The translations under genes were made by a program, and so were the position numbers. The notes beneath the pieces were generated by a model. It was given only the letters and a program-made list of their open reading frames with translations. It had not been told where the DNA came from and ran no database searches. From Fimbriimonadaceae bacterium (GTDB lineage Bacteria > Armatimonadota > Fimbriimonadia > Fimbriimonadales > Fimbriimonadaceae), in NCBI GenBank assembly GCA_019454125.1, contig CP075365.1, positions 986,218 to 1,050,217 of the forward strand: a DNA stretch of 64,000 nucleotides. Reading direction: 5' to 3'. This document shows, in pieces, positions 4,104-56,113 of this stretch (positions within the stretch are counted from its first letter, which is position 1; each line of letters starts with the position of its first letter).

Positions 4104-4120
4104 CCCTGCCCTCGGCAGGG
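4104..4120 (+). terminator. Hairpin after tRNA-Pro
   Basis: CCCTGCC-CTC-GGCAGGG forms a perfect 7-base stem with a 3-base loop 20 bases after the tRNA. It lacks a strong T-run, so it may act in processing or as a weak terminator. Confidence 0.45.
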
Positions 4121-4148
4121 TTGAGAGTCGGGGCGACGTCCAAGCAAA

Positions 4149-4182
4149 AAAGGGAGAGTGAGGACATCCTCACTCTCCCTTT
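4149..4182 (-). terminator. Strong intrinsic terminator of the TPR gene
   Basis: A perfect 16-base-pair stem (arms 4149-4164 and 4167-4182) with a 2-base CA loop. Read on the minus strand, the descending arm runs into six T residues, so it should stop transcription of the TPR gene that ends at 4202. On the plus strand it would also face tRNA-Pro read-through. Confidence 0.85.
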
Positions 4183-10500: not shown

Positions 10501-11445
10501 GTGCGGGTTTTGGTCACGGGCGCGGCAGGGTTCCTCGGTTCGCACCTCGTCGACCGCCTCCTGGCCCGTGGCGACGAGGTCGTGGGACTCGACAACGGCT
10601 CGACCGGCCGCTGGGAGAACCTGCGGCCCCACGCCAACCTCCGAATCCTCGAAGGGGACGCCTGTGACCCCCTTTCGGTCGACGGGCCCCTTGAGGGCAT
10701 TGTCCACATGGCTAGCCCAGCCTCCCCGGCGGACTTCGCCCGAATGCCTCTGGAGATCCTCCGCGCGAACTCCATCGGAACCGAGCGGTGCCTCCAGTTG
10801 GCCATGGAGAGAGGGGCGAGGATGGTTTTTGCCTCGACCAGCGAGGTCTATGGCGACCCCGCCGTTTCTCCACAGGCAGAAGCGTATTGGGGCAACGTCA
10901 ACCCGGTCGGCCCTCGTAGCCCTTACGACGAGTCCAAGCGCTTTGGGGAGGCGATGGCCATGGCCTACCACCGCCTCCACGGGCTCTCAGTGGGAATCGC
11001 GCGCTACTTCAACACGTTCGGGCCCAGAATGCGCGCGGACGATGGGAGGGCAGTGCCCACATTGATCCACCAAGCCCTACGGGGAGAGCCGCTCACGATT
11101 CAAGGCACGGGCGAACAGACGCGCTCGTTCGGTTACGTCGACGACACCATCGAGGGCACGCTCCTACTGCTCGATTCGCCCTTAGTGGGCCCTGTCAACA
11201 TTGGCTCGGAGGAAGAGTTGACAGTGCTTACACTAGCCAAGACCATCTTGGTGGCGACGGGTTCGGCGAGCGAGATCGTGCACGTACCGGCACCACAGGA
11301 CGACCCGAGGCAACGCAAGCCGGACCTTACGCGCGCACGTCGCGAACTTGGCTTCGAGCCGCGCGTCTCGCTCGAAGACGGCCTTTCGCGAACGATCGAG
11401 TGGATGCGCGAATCGAACGGTGACCGCGCGCAAGCGCTCGCCTAA
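10501..11445 (+). CDS. UDP-glucuronate decarboxylase-like SDR epimerase
   Basis: A 314-residue extended short-chain dehydrogenase. The Rossmann motif is TGAAGFLGSHL; the catalytic triad is Ser112-Ser114 region (ASTSEVYGDP), Tyr142 and Lys146 (PYDESKR). HMASPASPADFA, EAYWGNVNPVGPRSPYDESK and ARYFNTFGPRM closely follow UDP-xylose synthase (Uxs), which oxidises and decarboxylates UDP-glucuronate to UDP-xylose in the cytoplasm. Closely related dTDP-glucose dehydratases are a less likely alternative. Product sugars would feed surface polysaccharide, in keeping with the glycosyltransferase and LPS genes further on. Start GTG 10501 is backed by the -10 at 10489. The stop interlocks with the convergent isomerase gene. 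Confidence 0.85.
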   Translation: MRVLVTGAAGFLGSHLVDRLLARGDEVVGLDNGSTGRWENLRPHANLRILEGDACDPLSVDGPLEGIVHMASPASPADFARMPLEILRANSIGTERCLQLAMERGARMVFASTSEVYGDPAVSPQAEAYWGNVNPVGPRSPYDESKRFGEAMAMAYHRLHGLSVGIARYFNTFGPRMRADDGRAVPTLIHQALRGEPLTIQGTGEQTRSFGYVDDTIEGTLLLLDSPLVGPVNIGSEEELTVLTLAKTILVATGSASEIVHVPAPQDDPRQRKPDLTRARRELGFEPRVSLEDGLSRTIEWMRESNGDRAQALA

Positions 11446-12176
11446 GTGTCGAGCCCGCGGCTTCGTAGGAACTCAAAGCTCTCCGCGACGGCGTCGAACG
11501 GATCGCCCGGCGACTGGTCCAGCTCAATGATCGCGTACTCGACTCCGGCCTCCCGCGCGGCGGGAATAATCGCGCCCCAATCCAGCTCGCCCTGCCCGAC
11601 GGGGAGGAAGCGGTCCTTGTCGCCGTCCTTGAAGTGGGTCAAGGGCACGCGCCCCTCGATCCTGCGCAACCAGGCCGCGGGGTCTTGGCCCGCCCGCCAC
11701 GCCCAATAGAGGTCGAGCTCCGCGTGCAGCCCGCGCGGATTCGTCGACCACAGCCGCTCGTATCCAGGCACGCCTTCTTGCAGGTCAAATTCGAAACTGT
11801 GGTTATGGTATGCGAAGCGCAAGCCGAAGGGTTTGAGCGAATCCGCGACCGCCGTGAAGCGGGCGCCCAGCTTGTCCCAGCCCGGGCCGTATTCGCTTTC
11901 GCCTACTGCGGGCACGACCAAGAGGCCGGCGCCGAGGGTCTGCGCCATGACCACCGTCTCCGCGAGGCGCCCCTCCAGGTCTCCCAAGCCGACGTGGCAA
12001 GAGATGGTGTGCAGCCCGTTCTCATCCAGCAGCGCGCGGAACGCGGCCGGATCGAGGCCGTGCAGGCCGGCGGTCTCGACGTACCTGCATCCAATCTGGG
12101 CGAGCCGGGCCAGAGACCCCGCCGTATCGGCCGCCAAGGGGTCTCGCAGGGTGTAGAGCTGTGTCCCGATGCGCAC
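11442..12176 (-). CDS. Sugar phosphate isomerase/epimerase (xylose-isomerase-like TIM barrel)
   Basis: About 244 residues with the AP-endonuclease-2/xylose-isomerase-like fold: RIGTQLYTLRDPLAADTAG at the first strand, CRYVETAGLHGLDPAAF, HNHSFEFDL and AELDLYWAWRAGQDP, then LTHFKDGD with His and Asp as likely metal ligands, and EYAIIELDQ at the end. These proteins isomerise or oxidise sugars and inositols; the exact reaction is not evident. I chose GTG 12176, which gives the standard family start; the frame is open to a TTG at 12206. It shares stop-codon bases with the preceding convergent gene. Confidence 0.82.
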   Translation of the reverse strand: MRIGTQLYTLRDPLAADTAGSLARLAQIGCRYVETAGLHGLDPAAFRALLDENGLHTISCHVGLGDLEGRLAETVVMAQTLGAGLLVVPAVGESEYGPGWDKLGARFTAVADSLKPFGLRFAYHNHSFEFDLQEGVPGYERLWSTNPRGLHAELDLYWAWRAGQDPAAWLRRIEGRVPLTHFKDGDKDRFLPVGQGELDWGAIIPAAREAGVEYAIIELDQSPGDPFDAVAESFEFLRSRGLDT

Positions 12177-12276
12177 GGCCCATCTTGGCAAAAGCGGTCC
12201 CGGCAACGGTCGAGGGACCTAGCGTCCCAACCGACCGGGTTGGGAATCGCGTAAAAGCGATTTAGAGAGCAAAGTT

Positions 12277-12372
12277 CCGCAGGGGGTGCCGTAGCCGGCT
12301 GAGATGAGTCGCGTAGAGTCGCGACCTGTCCCCAAGAACCTGATCTGGGTAATGCCAGCGTAGGGATTGCGG
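12277..12372 (+). promoter_or_regulatory. TPP riboswitch (THI element)
   Basis: All the conserved parts are present: GGGGTGCC and GGCTGAGATG (CTGAGA at 12299-12304) on the pyrimidine-sensing side, an extended P3 hairpin (GTCGCG/CGCGAC), then CCTGATCTGGGTAATGCC and AGCGTAGGGA on the pyrophosphate side. P1 closes with CCGCA/TGCGG. Thiamine pyrophosphate binding is therefore highly likely. The next gene downstream is a prepilin-like gene, not a thiamine gene, which is unusual. A terminator 36 bases further suggests control by premature termination. Confidence 0.95.
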
Positions 12373-12407
12373 CGAGCCTTACCGAAGGCCTCAGGGGCCA
12401 ATGGGAT

Positions 12408-29114: not shown

Positions 29115-29164
29115 GGTCCTGAACTTGGGAACGTTCTGCTCCCCTCCTTAGTTAGTCTGAGTGA

Positions 29165-29295
29165 TCCTCCTTCAAGAAAAGGGACGCGGACGAAGGCGAG
29201 AGCGACCGATACGTCCCGGAAGCCAGGCAAAGCAAGAAAGAGAACAAGCGAGAATGGCGCCGGGCCTTGAGCGATCAAGCCCGGCCTCTTTTTTT
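29165..29295 (+). ncRNA. Candidate small RNA with terminator (RNA i)
   Basis: A gene-free stretch after lpxB. TAGTCT (29153-29158) is a possible -10. GGGACG (29181-29186) pairs with CGTCCC (29212-29217), with CGG/CCG inside. A strong terminator follows: GCCGGGC (29259-29265) with GCCCGGC (29279-29285), plus TTGA/TCAA, and seven T residues. The block GGCAAAGCAAG before the terminator recurs before the terminator of the larger candidate at 48.8 kb. It could instead be only the 3' untranslated end of the lpxB mRNA. Confidence 0.45.
29259..29295 (+). terminator. Intrinsic terminator
   Basis: An 11-base-pair stem with one bulged C and a GCGA tetraloop, followed by CCTC and TTTTTTT. It ends either the lpxB mRNA or the candidate small RNA. 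Confidence 0.85.
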
Positions 29296-29387
29296 GCCAG
29301 CCTCCTTGAAACCAAAGGGATCCGCTTGCGGCTCAGACGACCTCCAGAATCGCACGCAGGTGCCGAAACTAGGTGGTAGAAGAGATT

Positions 29388-29497
29388 CCTGGGCCAGACC
29401 GAGCGCTTGACTCCCTGGACACTTGGAACGACGAAACCGCAAACGAGACCTGGCCCGCATGGATCTGTCCTCTCCGTCCATACGGGCCTTTTTTATT
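29388..29497 (+). ncRNA. Candidate attenuator or second small RNA (RNA ii)
   Basis: GGGCCAG (29391-29397) can pair perfectly with CTGGCCC (29450-29456), but that segment is also the 5' arm of the terminator at 29452-29488. The two structures exclude each other, the usual logic of a riboswitch or attenuator. The 52 bases between the arms (CGACGAAACCGCAAACGAG within) match no riboswitch I know. A promoter directly before the GNAT start makes it less likely that this element controls GNAT, so an independent RNA is also possible. Confidence 0.4.
29452..29497 (+). terminator. Intrinsic terminator upstream of GNAT gene
   Basis: GGCCCG/CGGGCC (29452-29457, 29483-29488) and ATGGA/TCCAT stack with one mismatch; TTTTTTATT follows. 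It is the second terminator within 200 bases without a gene between them. Confidence 0.85.
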
Positions 29498-29524
29498 GCC
29501 CAGATAGGGTTGCCGGCGAACGTA

Positions 29525-36018: not shown

Positions 36019-37140
36019 TCAACCGAGCAACGACTTCCCGATCGGCCAGTCCACCCCTAGGTGGCTGGCTACGGTCGCTCCCACCGCGGTGTAGCCCGCG
36101 AACTCGCCTAAGTCCGCCTCAGGGCCTCCTTGGACCAGCGCTAACGGCGCGTATTCTCGTGTGTGGTCGGTCGAGGTGTCCGTCGGGTCGTTCCCGTGGT
36201 CGGCGGTGAGGGCCAGCAACGTCTCCGGGCCCAACCGGGATAGCCTGAGGCCCAGTTCGTGGTCGAAAGATTCCAGACACTTCGCGAACCCGGCTGGGTC
36301 GTTCCGATGCCCGTAGAGCATGTCGAAGTCTTCGAAATTTGCGAAGACGAACCGGGCGTCGCTGGTCAGCGCTTGATCCAGGGCCAGCCAGTGCTCCGCG
36401 TTGCTCTGGGAACGCCTCGTCTCCCTAAAGCCCCGCCCGCCGAAGAGCTCGGCGACCACCCCCACCCCGTAAACGTCGCCGATCCGATCGACCAGGTTCG
36501 GCGGCGCCTCGAGTGAGAAGTCCTTGCGGCGCTCGGTTCGGACGTACGCGCCCGGCGAGCCTGAAAAGGGGCGGGCGATCACGCGCTGGACGTTGTTCTG
36601 CCCGGAGCAAAGTCTTCGCGCCACGCGGCACATTCCGTAGAGCTCTTCAACCGGGACGGTCTCCTCGTGGCACGCGATCTGGAAAACGCTGTCAGCACTT
36701 GTATAAACGATCGGGAAGCCCGTTTCCTGGTGGAGCTCGCCGAGTTCCGCAATGATCTGGGTGCCGCTCGCCGCGCGGTTTCCCAGCGTCTGCGTCCCGA
36801 TTTCCCGCTCAAACTGCTTGATGAGCGAAATGGGGAAGCCCTCGGGGTAGGTGGGGAAGGGCCTCTCGACCACCGCGCCCATCATCTCCCAATGCCCGGT
36901 GACGGAGTCCTTGCCCATCCCGAGAGGCCGCAGGCGGGCAAACCGCCCGTTTGGCGTGCCAATGCCGCAGGCCGCTAAGAAGCCGGACCGTCCCAGGTTT
37001 GGGGCGGAGAAGCCCCCGACCGCCTCCCAGACGTGGCGGACGGTCGCGGAGTCGAGCGGGTCGCCGAAGTCCGGCGCGTCGGGCGCAGCCCCCGCCCCGC
37101 AACCATCCAGCACGAGCACCACTGCGCGGCGGTCGCTCAC
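36019..37140 (-). CDS. deoB: Phosphopentomutase
   Basis: A 373-residue metalloenzyme of the alkaline phosphatase superfamily converting (deoxy)ribose 1-phosphate to 5-phosphate in nucleoside breakdown. It opens [22 protein letters not shown] (metal Asp), has [14 protein letters not shown] with the catalytic Thr, [31 protein letters not shown] and [13 protein letters not shown] with the other metal ligands. GTG 37140 overlaps the ruvB stop (GTGA); the longer open frame to 37281 runs inside ruvB. It forms an operon with ruvA and ruvB. Confidence 0.94.
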
Positions 37141-46261: not shown

Positions 46262-47472
46262 TTGAGGGTCGCGGCCAACTGCCGTCCGCCTAACAGGATC
46301 CCCGTCGGTCGCAAGGGGTCGAGCCAATACGCCAGCTCCCGCTCGTCTTCGCGGGGCCATAGGCAAATGTCCGCACGCTTCCCGGGGGCTAGCACCCCAC
46401 GGTCACTGGAGCCCAGGCTCGCTGCCGCGTTCACGGTCGTCGCGACGAGCGCCTCGTGCGGGGTCATCCCGAGATACCGCGCGGCCAGAGCCATCACGAG
46501 CGGCAGGCCGTAGCCCGGCGAAGACCCGGGGTTGAAGTCGCTGGCGAGCACCACGGGTAACCCGGCCGCCATCATTTCAGGCGCGTCGGGATACTTCGCG
46601 AGGCCGAGGCCGAGCACGCTCAGGGGCAGGAGCACGGGCACGACCCCGGCCTTCGCCAAGGCCGCGATGCCGTCCGGCCCGGTGTGCTCCAGATGGTCGG
46701 CCGTCTTCGCGCCGAGTTCGGCTGCCAGCGCGGCCCCACCATGGTCGCCGAACTGGTCGACGTGGAGCCGCATCCCGAGCCCATGGGTCTTGGCCGCGTC
46801 GGCCAGGCGTCGGGCCTCTTCCGCTTCGAAATAGCCCTTCTCCACGAACATGTCCGCGTACTGGGCCCGTGCCGCGGCTTCCGGCAGCCCCGCCAAGACG
46901 ACCTCCTCGAAGTAGGCCTCACGCCTCTCCCGGTACTCGGGGGGCACCGCGTGGGCGGCCAGATAAGTCGGCACGATCGGAGGGCCGGCGGTCCCGTTCG
47001 TCGCCGTATAGGCGTCTAGGATGCCGAGCTCGGATGCGACGCTTAAGCCGTACCCGCTCTTCCCCTCGATGAGGGTCGTGCCGGCCAGGGCCATGCGGTC
47101 TCGATGCCCCGAGACGACCTTTTCCAAGTCGGCCGGGCTCAACTCGCGCGTCGCCCGGACCGTACTGAGGATCCCGCCGCCCGCGGCGGCCACTTCCTGG
47201 TAGCTCGCGCCTTTGGCCCGAAGCTCGAGTTCCCGGTAGCGGCTCCCGCCAAAGCCGAGGTGGGTGTGGGCGTCCACCAACCCTGGGGTCGCGACGCCCC
47301 CTTGCGCATCGTGCGTTTCGTCGGCACCGGAAGGCGCGTCCTTCGCCTTGCCGACCCACGCGATGGTCTCGCCTTCCACGAGGATCGCGGCGTCGGTCGT
47401 GACCTCGACCTCCCAAGAACCGTGACACCGGGGGGTCGCCAAACGACCGATGTTCTGGATGAGAAGGCTCAC
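46246..47472 (-). CDS. hutI: Imidazolonepropionase
   Basis: A 408-residue amidohydrolase of histidine degradation, hydrolysing imidazolonepropionate to N-formimino-glutamate. GLVDAHTHLGFGGSRYREL carries the HxH metal ligands; ASYQEVAAAGGGILSTVRATR and GTTLIEGKSGYGLS are family-typical; HVDQFGDHGGAALAAELG and the late LASDFNPGSSPGYGLP supply the other ligands. GTG 47472 overlaps the stop of the hutG-like gene (GTGA). Confidence 0.94.
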   Translation of the reverse strand: MSLLIQNIGRLATPRCHGSWEVEVTTDAAILVEGETIAWVGKAKDAPSGADETHDAQGGVATPGLVDAHTHLGFGGSRYRELELRAKGASYQEVAAAGGGILSTVRATRELSPADLEKVVSGHRDRMALAGTTLIEGKSGYGLSVASELGILDAYTATNGTAGPPIVPTYLAAHAVPPEYRERREAYFEEVVLAGLPEAAARAQYADMFVEKGYFEAEEARRLADAAKTHGLGMRLHVDQFGDHGGAALAAELGAKTADHLEHTGPDGIAALAKAGVVPVLLPLSVLGLGLAKYPDAPEMMAAGLPVVLASDFNPGSSPGYGLPLVMALAARYLGMTPHEALVATTVNAAASLGSSDRGVLAPGKRADICLWPREDERELAYWLDPLRPTGILLGGRQLAATLNQSRT

Positions 47473-48389
47473 GAGAGCCGCGTCACCAATCCGCTCGCGA
47501 AGTACATCAACGCCCCTGACCCAACAAGCGCCGTCAGCCCGGACGGATCGCGCTCCGGGTCGATCTCGACGATGTCCACAACGCGCACCCGGTGCGAGAC
47601 CCCGCACCGCCGCACCGCGTCCAACAGCTCCCATGACGCGAAGCCGCCGGGCCTCGCCCCTGGGCAACCCGGAGCGAACGCAGAGTCGAGGCAGTCGATG
47701 TCCACGTCCACATAGACGGCCTCGCAGTGCATGGGAAGGGAAGAGATGGCGCGCGTGACCGCCGTCCCCAATCCTTCAGACCGCGCGCGTTCCAGGGTCA
47801 CACGCTTCACGCCGGAACTCGAACCAAACCGCGCGTAGAACTCGGAGTTTGTGAAGGCCGCGATGCCCACCTGCACGATGTTCTGGCCGGGGAGGTCGTC
47901 GTCCAGAAGCGCGCGGACCGGATTGCCGTTGTGGAGGCCGTCTCCCAGGTGGCGCATATCCAAGTGCGCGTCGATCGTGACCAGCCCCACCTGCTCCAGC
48001 TTCAGGTTCAGCGCCTGCGCCATGCCAAGGACGCCCGCCCGCGTGACGCCGTTGTCGCCGCCGAGCAACACCGTCGCCTCGAACCCCGGCACCGCGCCCA
48101 TCATCGCCTCCATGATCGGCGCGGCCGCGTCTTCGGGGCTCGACCCGTTCAAACCCACGTCGCCCAGGTCCACCGCACGTAGCGACCGCACGTCCAGGTC
48201 GCGCTCCACGTCGTACGTTCCCCAGCGGGCAAGCGCCTGGCGGACCGCGTCTGGTGCCAAGTCGCACCTGCCCGGGGAGATCGAGTGGTTGAGCGGGACG
48301 CCGAGCACGGACAAGCTCCCCTTGGTTTGGTCAAGCCGGGCGCCTTCCAGCCACGACCTAGCCCTCGTCCATTGCAGGTCTTCGTGCAT
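47469..48389 (-). CDS. Arginase-family hydrolase, probable formimidoylglutamase
   Basis: A 306-residue ureohydrolase. The metal motifs are DAHLDMR and DVDIDCLDSAFAPG; the first motif is LLGGDNGV, with Asn in place of the usual metal-binding His of GGDH. Coupling to hutI argues for a HutG-type formimidoylglutamase yielding glutamate and formamide. The Asn change could alter metal content. I chose ATG 48389 because TATGCT lies 7 bases upstream; an in-frame ATG at 48401 overlaps that hexamer. Confidence 0.82.
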   Translation of the reverse strand: MHEDLQWTRARSWLEGARLDQTKGSLSVLGVPLNHSISPGRCDLAPDAVRQALARWGTYDVERDLDVRSLRAVDLGDVGLNGSSPEDAAAPIMEAMMGAVPGFEATVLLGGDNGVTRAGVLGMAQALNLKLEQVGLVTIDAHLDMRHLGDGLHNGNPVRALLDDDLPGQNIVQVGIAAFTNSEFYARFGSSSGVKRVTLERARSEGLGTAVTRAISSLPMHCEAVYVDVDIDCLDSAFAPGCPGARPGGFASWELLDAVRRCGVSHRVRVVDIVEIDPERDPSGLTALVGSGALMYFASGLVTRLS

Positions 48390-48396
48390 GGCCTTT

Positions 48397-48402
48397 AGCA
48401 TA
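48397..48402 (-). promoter_or_regulatory. -10 element (TATGCT), leaderless
   Basis: TATGCT on the minus strand, 7 bases before ATG 48389 of the hutG-like gene. Confidence 0.5.
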
Positions 48403-48507
48403 GCCCGAGGCACGCGGAAATGCGGGCGTTCGCGGCGTTCTTGAACTTCCCCCAGGCTCGTGGAAAACTTTTCGCGAGAAAATTGCGCGGCCCCCTAGTA
48501 TTTTCAC

Positions 48508-48864
48508 GTTAAGAGCGTGTAAAGTTCCAGTTGTTGAATCGCAACGGGCCCGAACGTTCCGGTTACCTACCGGTGTGGCCCTGGGATTTAGCGACAGGGA
48601 ACTGACCTGATCCCGGGGGAATCGCATAAGGGCGGATCGGGAGATGGAAGGGACACGCGGATGCCGAGCGGCGCGATACGGAAAGCGCACCGAGAGCGTC
48701 GGAAGCGTGGACAGGCATAGGCCATAGAAGCCCGGCCAGGCGCACCGAGGGGCGTAGACCGGGCTGGCCACTAGAGATCGCGCTCACATGGAGGGCGCGA
48801 CGCCGGCAAAGCAAGCGAGGGCGCGGCGTGTTATTGGGATCGAAATACACGCCGCCCTTTTTTT
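48508..48864 (+). ncRNA. Candidate large structured non-coding RNA
   Basis: About 360 bases without a gene between two minus-strand genes, ending in a plus-strand terminator. TAGTAT (48496-48501) could be the -10. Possible helices: CCGGT/ACCGG (48559-48573 region), ATGCC/GGCAT (48661-48665, 48714-48718), AGCCCGG/CCGGGCT (48729-48735, 48759-48765). GCGCACCGAG occurs twice (48685, 48740). GGCAAAGCAAGCGAG precedes the terminator, as in RNA i. It lacks the conserved cores of RNase P RNA, tmRNA, SRP RNA and 6S RNA. Type unknown. Confidence 0.5.
48823..48864 (+). terminator. Intrinsic terminator of the candidate RNA
   Basis: GCGGCGTGT (48823-48831) pairs perfectly with ACACGCCGC (48847-48855), followed by CC and seven T residues whose last bases form the antisense of the DUF2207 stop codon. 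Only a plus-strand transcript without a CDS can use it. Confidence 0.85.
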
Positions 48865-50656
48865 ACCAACTTCCGCCGCCACCGCCGCCGAAACCTCCCC
48901 CGCTGAAGCCTCCGCCCCCTCCCCCGCCGAATCCGGATCCTCCACTGGACGACTCCGATCGAGGCACCGTCGTGGCCGCAGAGCCGATCGCCCTGGTCGT
49001 CGAGTCCAACGAGTTCGCAAAATAGACCGGCGAGAAGGTCGTGTCGCGGGGCCCCACCCACCACACCGGCGGGCTTTGGACGACTTCCTTAAACGTGTCC
49101 GACCACCTATCGACCAACCCGAAGGCCACCGCGTAGGGGAGCAACTCCTCATAGCGCGCCTGGGCGATCTCCTTCTCAGCCACCCATTCCAGATAGGAAC
49201 GCCGCCCCTTCATGGCTTCGTAGAAACCCGCCACGCGGTGCCGCGCGCGAGCGCCGAGCTGAGTTCGCCGCGGCATGATCGAGGCAAAGCTTATGACGAG
49301 ACCGGCCCCGAGGGCCCCCCCGATAACGCTCGAGGCCAGCGAAACCTGTCCGTGCAGGATGTTGCGGCTAATAATGAAGAGGAACACCAGCAAAACCCCG
49401 CCCCCGATAAACGTGGCGAGCTTTGCCATGTCTGGACGGAGATGGTAATAGCCACGTCCCACGAAGTCGTCGAAAATCTTCTCCTTTAGGCGGGAAATCT
49501 TTACGCCAACGTCTGACACGAGTTTCGCGCGGGTGACGACCGATCCTTCTGGGCCGAGCGCTGCCAAGAGCTGGTCCTCGAACGCGGTGAGGCGCTGGGT
49601 CGGTTTTTTCGAAACGACGTTGATTACGGGATCTGTGCCAAAGAGGAACCTTTTCTCTGCGGAGAGCGTCAGGCACCCTTTAGCGGCGAGGGACACGATA
49701 GCGGCAGAGACATCGCGATTGTCCACTCGCTCGTCGATCAAAGCGCCGCATTCGGCCGGGCCAAGGCCGTCGGGAGGTTCAAACTCGACTCCAACCGGGC
49801 CAAGCTTGGGATCTTTCCCAAAGGCGTACCAGATTGGGAGCATCACGGCCAGAATCAAGACGGGGATCAGAAACCCCGAGTTCGGCCAGATCCACCAGCT
49901 AGCCAGGGTAAGAGGGTCTGGGTGCGGAACGACCGTGTCCGGCACAGAAAAGACGATGGTCAATCCCTCTCCAGGAATCAGCGGTTGTTTGCGTTGTCCG
50001 GAGAACTCGGTCTGCGAAAGCTTGATGGAAGTGAAGGTCTCGGGGTCAGCGGGGGAAGAGCCGGGAGAAGGTAGATAGTTCTGCGCCGAGGAACCGGTGT
50101 AACCGGTAAGAACCTTAGCCCTTGCCTTATCGGTCTCAGGGAAAGACACCTTAAAGCTTGACTCCTGGATCTCGGTGTCCCAGTCGTTGCCAGTGACGTT
50201 CCAATAAAGCTCGGCTTGCGGCTCCCAGTCCTTCCTTTTGTCGAACCAGTTAAACGCGTTGGTCACGGTGTAAGCGATGACGTAAGTCTTGTTGGTCCCC
50301 GGAGGAAACGTGACGTCTTCGTCACCGATCCGGATATTGAGATAGGCGCCGTCGCTCGTCACTAAAGTCGTCAGCGGTCGTCCGCTTTCGTCCTTGACCT
50401 GGATATCGCTCAAGGCGACCTGCCTCCGGAACGGAGTGTTGGTCTCATAGAGGAACGGGATCTTGCGAAAAATTCCGCGCCGAGGCTCCTGGAACTCGAC
50501 CGAGATCGTCTCCTTCACGCGCAAGAGGGAATCCTTGCCGATTGAGATTTCTGCGTCGAAGCTCTTGATCAGGAACGGATAACCGCCACCATATTGTCCG
50601 CAGGCGAGAGCCGCCCACAGCAGGAGAAGAAGCGCCACCGCCCGTCGAGCCATCAC
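48863..50656 (-). CDS. DUF2207 membrane protein with glycine-rich tail
   Basis: A 597-residue exported membrane protein. A signal sequence (ARRAVALLLLLWAALACG) precedes the DUF2207 domain: FDAEISIGKDSLLRVKETIS, FQEPRRGIFRKIPFLYET, then AYTVTNAFNWFDKRKDW and LYWNVTGNDWDTEI. Helices follow near residue 260 and 420, and the tail is almost pure Gly/Ser/Phe (SGFGGGGGGGFSGGGF), as usual for the family. The function is unknown. GTG 50656 and ATG 50653 are adjacent starts. Confidence 0.88.
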   Translation of the reverse strand: MMARRAVALLLLLWAALACGQYGGGYPFLIKSFDAEISIGKDSLLRVKETISVEFQEPRRGIFRKIPFLYETNTPFRRQVALSDIQVKDESGRPLTTLVTSDGAYLNIRIGDEDVTFPPGTNKTYVIAYTVTNAFNWFDKRKDWEPQAELYWNVTGNDWDTEIQESSFKVSFPETDKARAKVLTGYTGSSAQNYLPSPGSSPADPETFTSIKLSQTEFSGQRKQPLIPGEGLTIVFSVPDTVVPHPDPLTLASWWIWPNSGFLIPVLILAVMLPIWYAFGKDPKLGPVGVEFEPPDGLGPAECGALIDERVDNRDVSAAIVSLAAKGCLTLSAEKRFLFGTDPVINVVSKKPTQRLTAFEDQLLAALGPEGSVVTRAKLVSDVGVKISRLKEKIFDDFVGRGYYHLRPDMAKLATFIGGGVLLVFLFIISRNILHGQVSLASSVIGGALGAGLVISFASIMPRRTQLGARARHRVAGFYEAMKGRRSYLEWVAEKEIAQARYEELLPYAVAFGLVDRWSDTFKEVVQSPPVWWVGPRDTTFSPVYFANSLDSTTRAIGSAATTVPRSESSSGGSGFGGGGGGGFSGGGFGGGGGGSW

Positions 50657-54607: not shown

Positions 54608-56113
54608 TTAGTACGCCTTGGCGAAGACCACCCGCTGCTGGCTGGGCTGGCCGGAGAACACGCACCTGCCCGGTTCGGCGTCATCGGCGCGCAGCGGCGT
54701 TCGCGGGATGCAGCGGATGGTCGCCTTCGTCGCCTCGTTGATCTTCTGCTCGGTCTCGCGCGTCCCGTCCCAGTGGGCGAGGACAAATCCGCCTCCGCCC
54801 TCGCCGCTAAACCTTTCGGTGAAGTCATCCCAAGCGTCCACCCGATGGGTGTTGGCCTCGCGCATGGCGAGGGCGCGCTCAAAGAGACCGTGCTGCATCG
54901 CGTCGAGCCCGGCATGGATTCCGTCCACCAATTGCTCAAGGCTCAAGGTGCGCTTTTCTCCATCGTCCCTGCGGACGAGGATGCAGGTGCCGGCCTCCAA
55001 GTCGCGGGGCCCGAGCTCGACCCGGACGCACGCGCCCTTTAGCTCCCAATCGTTGAATTTGAAGCCGGGCGACTCCTTCTCGCGCTTGTCGACCTTGACT
55101 CGGACAGGGAGCCCGTTCCAATTCGTATCCGTTAACGTTTGAGCGATCCGGTCGGCCGCTTCAACGACCCGGACATAATCGTCCTTCCGCCCGATCGGAA
55201 CGATCGCCACCTGCACAGGGGCGAGCCGAGGCGGGCAAACGAGCCCCTTATCGTCGGAATGCACCATGAGGAGAGTTCCAACCAAACGGGTGGAAACTCC
55301 CCAACTGGTTGCATAAACGTACTCCTGCTTGCCTTCTTGGGATTGGAACATAACGTCGAACGCCTTCGCGAAGTTCTGGCCCAAATGGTGAGAAGTGCCC
55401 GCTTGAATCGCGCGCAAGTCTTGGGTCATGGCTTCGATCGTGTACGTGTGGTCTGCCCCCGCGAACTTCTCGCCGTCGCTCTTGATCCCAGCCACGACAG
55501 GCACCGCCATCCAGTCTTGGGCGAACCGGGTGTAGATCTCCAGGATCGTCAGCGCTTCCTCTTCCGCCTCGTCATAGGTGACGTGAGCGGTGTGGCCCTC
55601 CTGCCAAAGGAACTCGGCGGTCCGCAAAAAAAGGCGCGGCCTAAGCTCCCAGCGCATGACGTTCGCCCACTGGTTGATGAGCAGCGGGAGATCACGGTAG
55701 GACTGGATCCAACTTTTGTAAGAGTGCCAGATGATCGTTTCGCTCGTCGGGCGGATGATCAACTCTTCCTCTAACCGCGCGTCGGGGTCCACGATCACAC
55801 CGTTTGGTGAATCTTTAAGCCTATGGTGGGTCACGACCGCACACTCCTTGGCGAAGCCCTCGACGTGTTCCGCCTCCCGACTCAGGAACGACTTTGGGAT
55901 GAGCAGCGGGAAATAGGCGTTTTGGTGCCCGGTGGCCTTGAACATGCCGTCCAGGGCGTCGCGCATCAATTCCCACATCGCATAGCCATGCGGTTTGATG
56001 ACCATGCAACCGCGGACAACGCTGTTGTCCGCCAGCCCGGCCCGTTTGACCAGGTCGTTGTACCACTCGGCGTAGTTTTCGTCCCGCGGCGTTATTCCCA
56101 AGTCGCTCGCCAT
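54608..56113 (-). CDS. proS: Prolyl-tRNA synthetase, archaeal/eukaryotic type
   Basis: A 501-residue class II synthetase without the bacterial editing insertion. [78 protein letters not shown] (motif 2 region) and [16 protein letters not shown] are typical of the ProS type of archaea, eukaryotes and Thermus. The C-terminal zinc-type domain end ([17 protein letters not shown]) is present with altered cysteines. ATG 56113 is chosen; the longer frame is not conserved. Confidence 0.94.

Follow-up and report, generated by a model that had tools for sequence, protein, structure and literature searches.

Between positions 48414 and 48862 of the DNA analyzed here (64,000 nucleotides from a Fimbriimonadaceae bacterium, hereafter the window) lies a gap flanked by two minus-strand genes. 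A sequence-only reading had described the gap as gene-free and proposed that it encodes a new class of large structured RNA on the plus strand. Does the gap hold a noncoding RNA gene and, if so, is this RNA new? The first part of the description agrees with our results: the ORFs within the gap are short chance frames only. On the plus strand the gap is rich in purines, in contrast to the flanking genes. The arginase-family gene on the left, together with the amidohydrolase gene behind it, has the look of a hutG-hutI pair. The locus comprises the following features:

47469–48413, minus strand: arginase/formimidoylglutamase-family gene (hutG-like; Pfam PF00491)
48496–48501, plus strand: possible −10 box TAGTAT, read from the sequence, without a convincing −35 box
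48508–48864, plus strand: predicted noncoding RNA gene, start uncertain (about 48508–48515); ORF-free, with an unusual fold and a 3′ terminator
48863–50656, minus strand: DUF2207 membrane protein gene (Pfam PF09972 and PF20990)

The predicted RNA is about 350 nt long. We rate the −10 box as weak because a sigma-70 scan gave no promoter for this RNA.

Fold and terminator of the plus strand

The plus-strand fold has an energy of −156 kcal/mol (z −3.67), a value that none of 100 shuffles reached, and when folded from 48515 the RNA has a z of −4.65. The minus strand of the same region has no unusual fold (z −1.51). A fold better than that of shuffles on one strand, as sought in structured noncoding RNAs, was thus found for the plus strand. 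Among 95 equal-length stretches (this one and 94 others in the window), the RNA departs furthest from its shuffles. The several long helices noted earlier were recovered, most of the predicted helices having pairing probabilities of 0.85–1.0. According to this model, the RNA would fold into two domains followed by a terminator, all on the plus strand:

48515–48658, plus strand: predicted 5′ domain closed by GCGUGU/ACACGC (pairing probabilities 0.95–0.99)
48523–48603, plus strand: long hairpin in the 5′ domain (z −5.33 on its own)
48662–48808, plus strand: predicted 3′ multibranch domain, closed by 48662–48670/48801–48808
48729–48765, plus strand: stem-loop with the core GGCCAGGCGCACCGAGGGGCGTAGACC at 48734–48760, common to a relative, Fimbriimonadaceae bacterium ACE_ARM1
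48778–48800, plus strand: final hairpin ahead of the closing helix, with an equivalent relative place in the ACE_ARM1 RNA
48805–48815, plus strand: GGCAAAGCAAG, a partly single-stranded stretch ahead of the terminator, also present in a second candidate RNA (B, below)
48817–48864, plus strand: intrinsic terminator of 17 pairs followed by U7

The repeated sequence of the sequence-only reading, GCGCACCGAG, occurs exactly at 48685 and 48740, slightly more often than chance would give. Of the two copies, the second alone sits in the stem-loop shared with ACE_ARM1.

The terminator arms, GAGGGCGCGGCGTGTTATT and AATACACGCCGCCCTTT, are followed by T7. This terminator had been called perfect; it is real, but it is perfect solely across a 9-bp core, with two one-base bulges elsewhere among its 17 pairs. 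A terminator scan overlooked the hairpin because of these bulges. With a hairpin energy of −22 to −24 kcal/mol, it is the strongest on the plus strand in the 64 kb window. Six out of 70 terminators in 464 kb of the window genome are preceded by at least 100 nt without ORFs, the longest such stretch being that of the present terminator. As no plus-strand gene lies upstream of it, a plus-strand transcript ending there must begin within the gap. The RNA would carry an intrinsic terminator with a U tract, as trans-acting sRNAs do. No gene follows on its strand, so it is not the leader of a neighbouring gene.

A probable relative behind proS

We ran blastn with the window RNA over 60 relatives. The single notable match (25 of 27 nt identical) was in ACE_ARM1 (genome G008), with an E value of 4.6e-4 in that one genome, or about 0.03 over all genomes searched. 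The hairpin loop is identical in the two genomes and the outer stem has three compensated pairs; when this hairpin was tested in the two sequences, 68 of 500 shuffles did as well, so the compensation is not significant alone. The matching sequence belongs to an intergenic stretch of about 570 nt that immediately follows proS and faces a PnrA/Bmp gene (pnrA). The ACE_ARM1 RNA is about 470 nt long and has a fold z of −7.06 when the region is trimmed to its likely ends. In both RNAs, the shared hairpin is followed by another hairpin, the domain closing strand and a terminator-like hairpin, and the alignment of the sequence 3′ of the shared hairpin outscores 994 of 1000 shuffles. The two RNAs do not align beyond the hairpin and this tail.

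The proS gene also lies near the window RNA:

54611–56113, minus strand: proS (tblastn, 74% identity to the ACE_ARM1 proS)

The distance is 5.8 kb, and the chance of such closeness is about 0.5–1%. In the window proS is opposite in orientation to the RNA, and the relative orientation differs from that in ACE_ARM1. Taken together, the hairpin match, the compensated pairs, the order of elements, the tail alignment and the proximity of proS make it likely, with good confidence, that the two RNAs are homologous.

The hairpin is present in two of 291 Armatimonadota genomes. A motif pattern searched in 84,980 genomes gave three matches, in ACE_ARM1, one Woesearchaeote and one Zoogloeaceae record; the latter two are both within long ORFs and were taken as chance. 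The pattern had no match in viral contigs, and blastn of plasmids and phages gave nothing. All other matches of the motif model R1 in the family, order and phylum lay inside long ORFs. The plain-letter input for R1, and for the model R2 described below, omitted inserted bases (a single A in ACE_ARM1 and several in G001), so that the alignments were gap-free.

The same intergenic region in related genomes had been proposed as a check. Orthologues of hutG and of the DUF2207 gene do occur in relatives, without the RNA, and the related RNA was found beside proS instead. This result bears on the possibility that the region is a cis-acting leader or antisense element for its minus-strand neighbours (the hut operon or the DUF2207 gene). 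The hut promoter must lie in the gap, and the U tract at the 3′ end of the RNA runs into the DUF2207 stop codon. We nonetheless regard a cis-acting role as very unlikely: the minus-strand fold is no better than usual, the overlap with DUF2207 is about two bases, and the ACE_ARM1 relative adjoins proS and pnrA. A hut leader in particular is disfavoured because the hutG genes of relatives have no such structured region upstream.

A further possibility is that there is no RNA gene, and that we are looking at a chance fold in GC-rich intergenic DNA, a read-through terminator and a chance 27-nt match. The E value over all genomes searched is compatible with this explanation, and an apparently coding stretch of the window (36751–37107) has a plus-strand fold almost as far below its shuffles as that of the RNA. 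However, chance would require the fold, the terminator, the tail similarity, the proS neighbourhood and the folded noncoding character of the matching region to coincide, which we consider quite improbable. We consider it very likely that the gap holds a noncoding RNA gene.

A third ORF-free region lies directly behind proS in genome G001, which belongs to the window's own genus (their RNase P RNAs are 95% identical). It contains a terminator-like hairpin and has a fold z of −2.70. The structured intergenic RNAs directly behind proS span 11106–11580 of locus L154 (G008) and 11250–11570 of locus L140 (G001). Over about 120 nt the G001 RNA is clearly related to that of ACE_ARM1, scoring higher than all 1000 shuffles, but it has no detectable sequence relation to the window RNA, and sequence comparison did not reveal the window RNA in G001. 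Neither an HMM nor the model R2, both built on the core common to the ACE_ARM1 and G001 RNAs, matched the window RNA. Over the phylum, ACE_ARM1 was the sole clear match of R2; the first-look filter of this search lost even G001. A DNA search with the G001 RNA returned chance matches only. Three-way alignments produced automatically proved unreliable, and none is used here.

From these comparisons, the three RNAs appear to form a chain linked via ACE_ARM1. Either they are one RNA that changes very fast or they are different RNAs with shared parts; we favour the first reading because of the common proS neighbourhood. If the homology is true, a structured RNA has become nearly unrecognisable between genomes that keep 90% identity in their RNase P RNAs, and such rapid change would explain why comparative searches overlook genes of this kind. 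A stronger version, in which the three are one orthologous, rapidly remodelled, proS-linked RNA and represent a new structured class organized around a fixed docking hairpin and having its own activity or a protein partner specific to the lineage, seems to us unlikely.

Known RNA families and novelty

The window RNA has no family match in Rfam even at E 10, chance-level hits aside, and the ACE_ARM1 and G001 RNAs have none at E 2. One such hit was to the tfoR sRNA (RF02100), which matches the last 97 nt at 18.1 bits (E 0.067) against a gathering score of 70 and was treated as chance. We looked specifically at the families whose cores had been reported as missing, and none matched the window RNA. 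The SRP RNA and 6S RNA models do not match the window RNA at E 10. ARAGORN finds no tmRNA in the window, and Rfam is likewise negative. The RNase P RNA model (RF00010) has no match in the window; the RNase P RNA of this genome is encoded elsewhere (199681–199998, E 2.3e-84). The gene length and isolation, and the large sequence drift among relatives, would suit a very divergent SRP RNA, 6S RNA, tmRNA or RNase P RNA, but given these searches we judge that explanation very improbable.

The models of OLE, ROOL, GOLLD and other large RNAs in Rfam do not match the window RNA either. Like OLE, ROOL and GOLLD (PMC12286853), it would be a bacterial RNA that stands alone, folds elaborately and has a function known in part or not at all. 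Those RNAs differ in being longer (659 nt for ROOL and >800 nt for GOLLD; PMC12286853), in having many homologues with clear covariation and in being represented in Rfam. The orphan candidates that Brewer et al. 2021 (PMC8632094) drew from long GC-rich intergenic regions were recognized in the same way, by an intergenic region that is long and structured. Compared with those motifs, the window RNA is not in Rfam 15, and its homologues are far fewer than expected for a published motif. We found no noncoding-RNA study naming Fimbriimonas in the literature searched.

A predicted structured, noncoding plus-strand RNA outside all Rfam families is well supported by the fold, by the terminator and by a homologue whose loop is identical and whose stem is compensated. 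The proposal of a new class of large structured RNA holds in part: a new structured noncoding family without an Rfam entry stands, while an established new class and a large size do not. Relatives are few, the covariation comes from a single hairpin compared between two RNAs, and a length of about 350 nt is not exceptional. Our results support a new lineage-restricted RNA family and do not support a new class with a defined function. The family appears to be undescribed, yet it adds to the known orphan structured RNAs and does not amount to a new kind of system.

Candidate RNA B and possible modes of action

The 11-mer GGCAAAGCAAG lies just before the terminator in a second candidate of the window as well, and 464 kb of the window genome contain no further exact copy:

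29160–29293, plus strand: candidate small RNA B, start uncertain, with its own terminator and GGCAAAGCAAG

B and the window RNA show modest further similarity in the same order (matched by 3 or 15 of 400 shuffles, depending on gap cost), and on sequence grounds B is a possible paralogue. The surrounding region (29115–29520), between lpxB-like and GNAT-like genes, has two plus-strand terminators 200 nt apart, which suggests two tandem small RNA genes, at about 29160–29293 and 29331–29496.

The window RNA shares its own U7 terminator and the lack of an ORF with intrinsically terminated trans-acting sRNAs, and its 3′ stretch with candidate B, but it is longer and more folded than most such sRNAs. 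It might be a long sRNA that regulates mRNAs by pairing with them via GGCAAAGCAAG or the ACCGAG loop, with the help of a chaperone, the folded body being mainly stabilising. The strong terminator with an A-rich stretch immediately before it and the recurrence of the 11-mer in B fit such an sRNA. The part conserved with ACE_ARM1, however, is a closed stem-loop and offers no open seed, and we consider an sRNA of this type possible but doubtful.

The explanation that we prefer, to which we give about an even chance as a whole, is that of a noncoding RNA gene that stands alone, evolves fast and is restricted to its lineage. We infer that a free-standing RNA is transcribed from the plus strand, from 48508 (or 48515) to 48864, and ends at its own intrinsic terminator. 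Its family would evolve fast, be detectable in few Fimbriimonadaceae only and sit in the proS neighbourhood. A protein or RNA partner would dock at the conserved loop with its inner stem (AG-GCGCACCGAGGNGCGU-A), and the A-rich GGCAAAGCAAG segment and the terminator would act as an sRNA-like 3′ module. That the RNA acts in trans through a docking hairpin is a proposal we hold to be evenly balanced. The window RNA is a concrete candidate for a noncoding RNA gene in Armatimonadota, and its interest lies in its narrow, fast-changing occurrence and in a short conserved hairpin that could act as bait for finding the partner.

Other RNA elements were seen in the window. Two plus-strand riboswitches are clear, for c-di-AMP (1800–1931) and TPP (12272–12384). 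Close to a tRNA-Pro gene, a very strong minus-strand terminator hairpin (4115–4149, −27 kcal/mol) has a matching A run on its other side and is possibly bidirectional.
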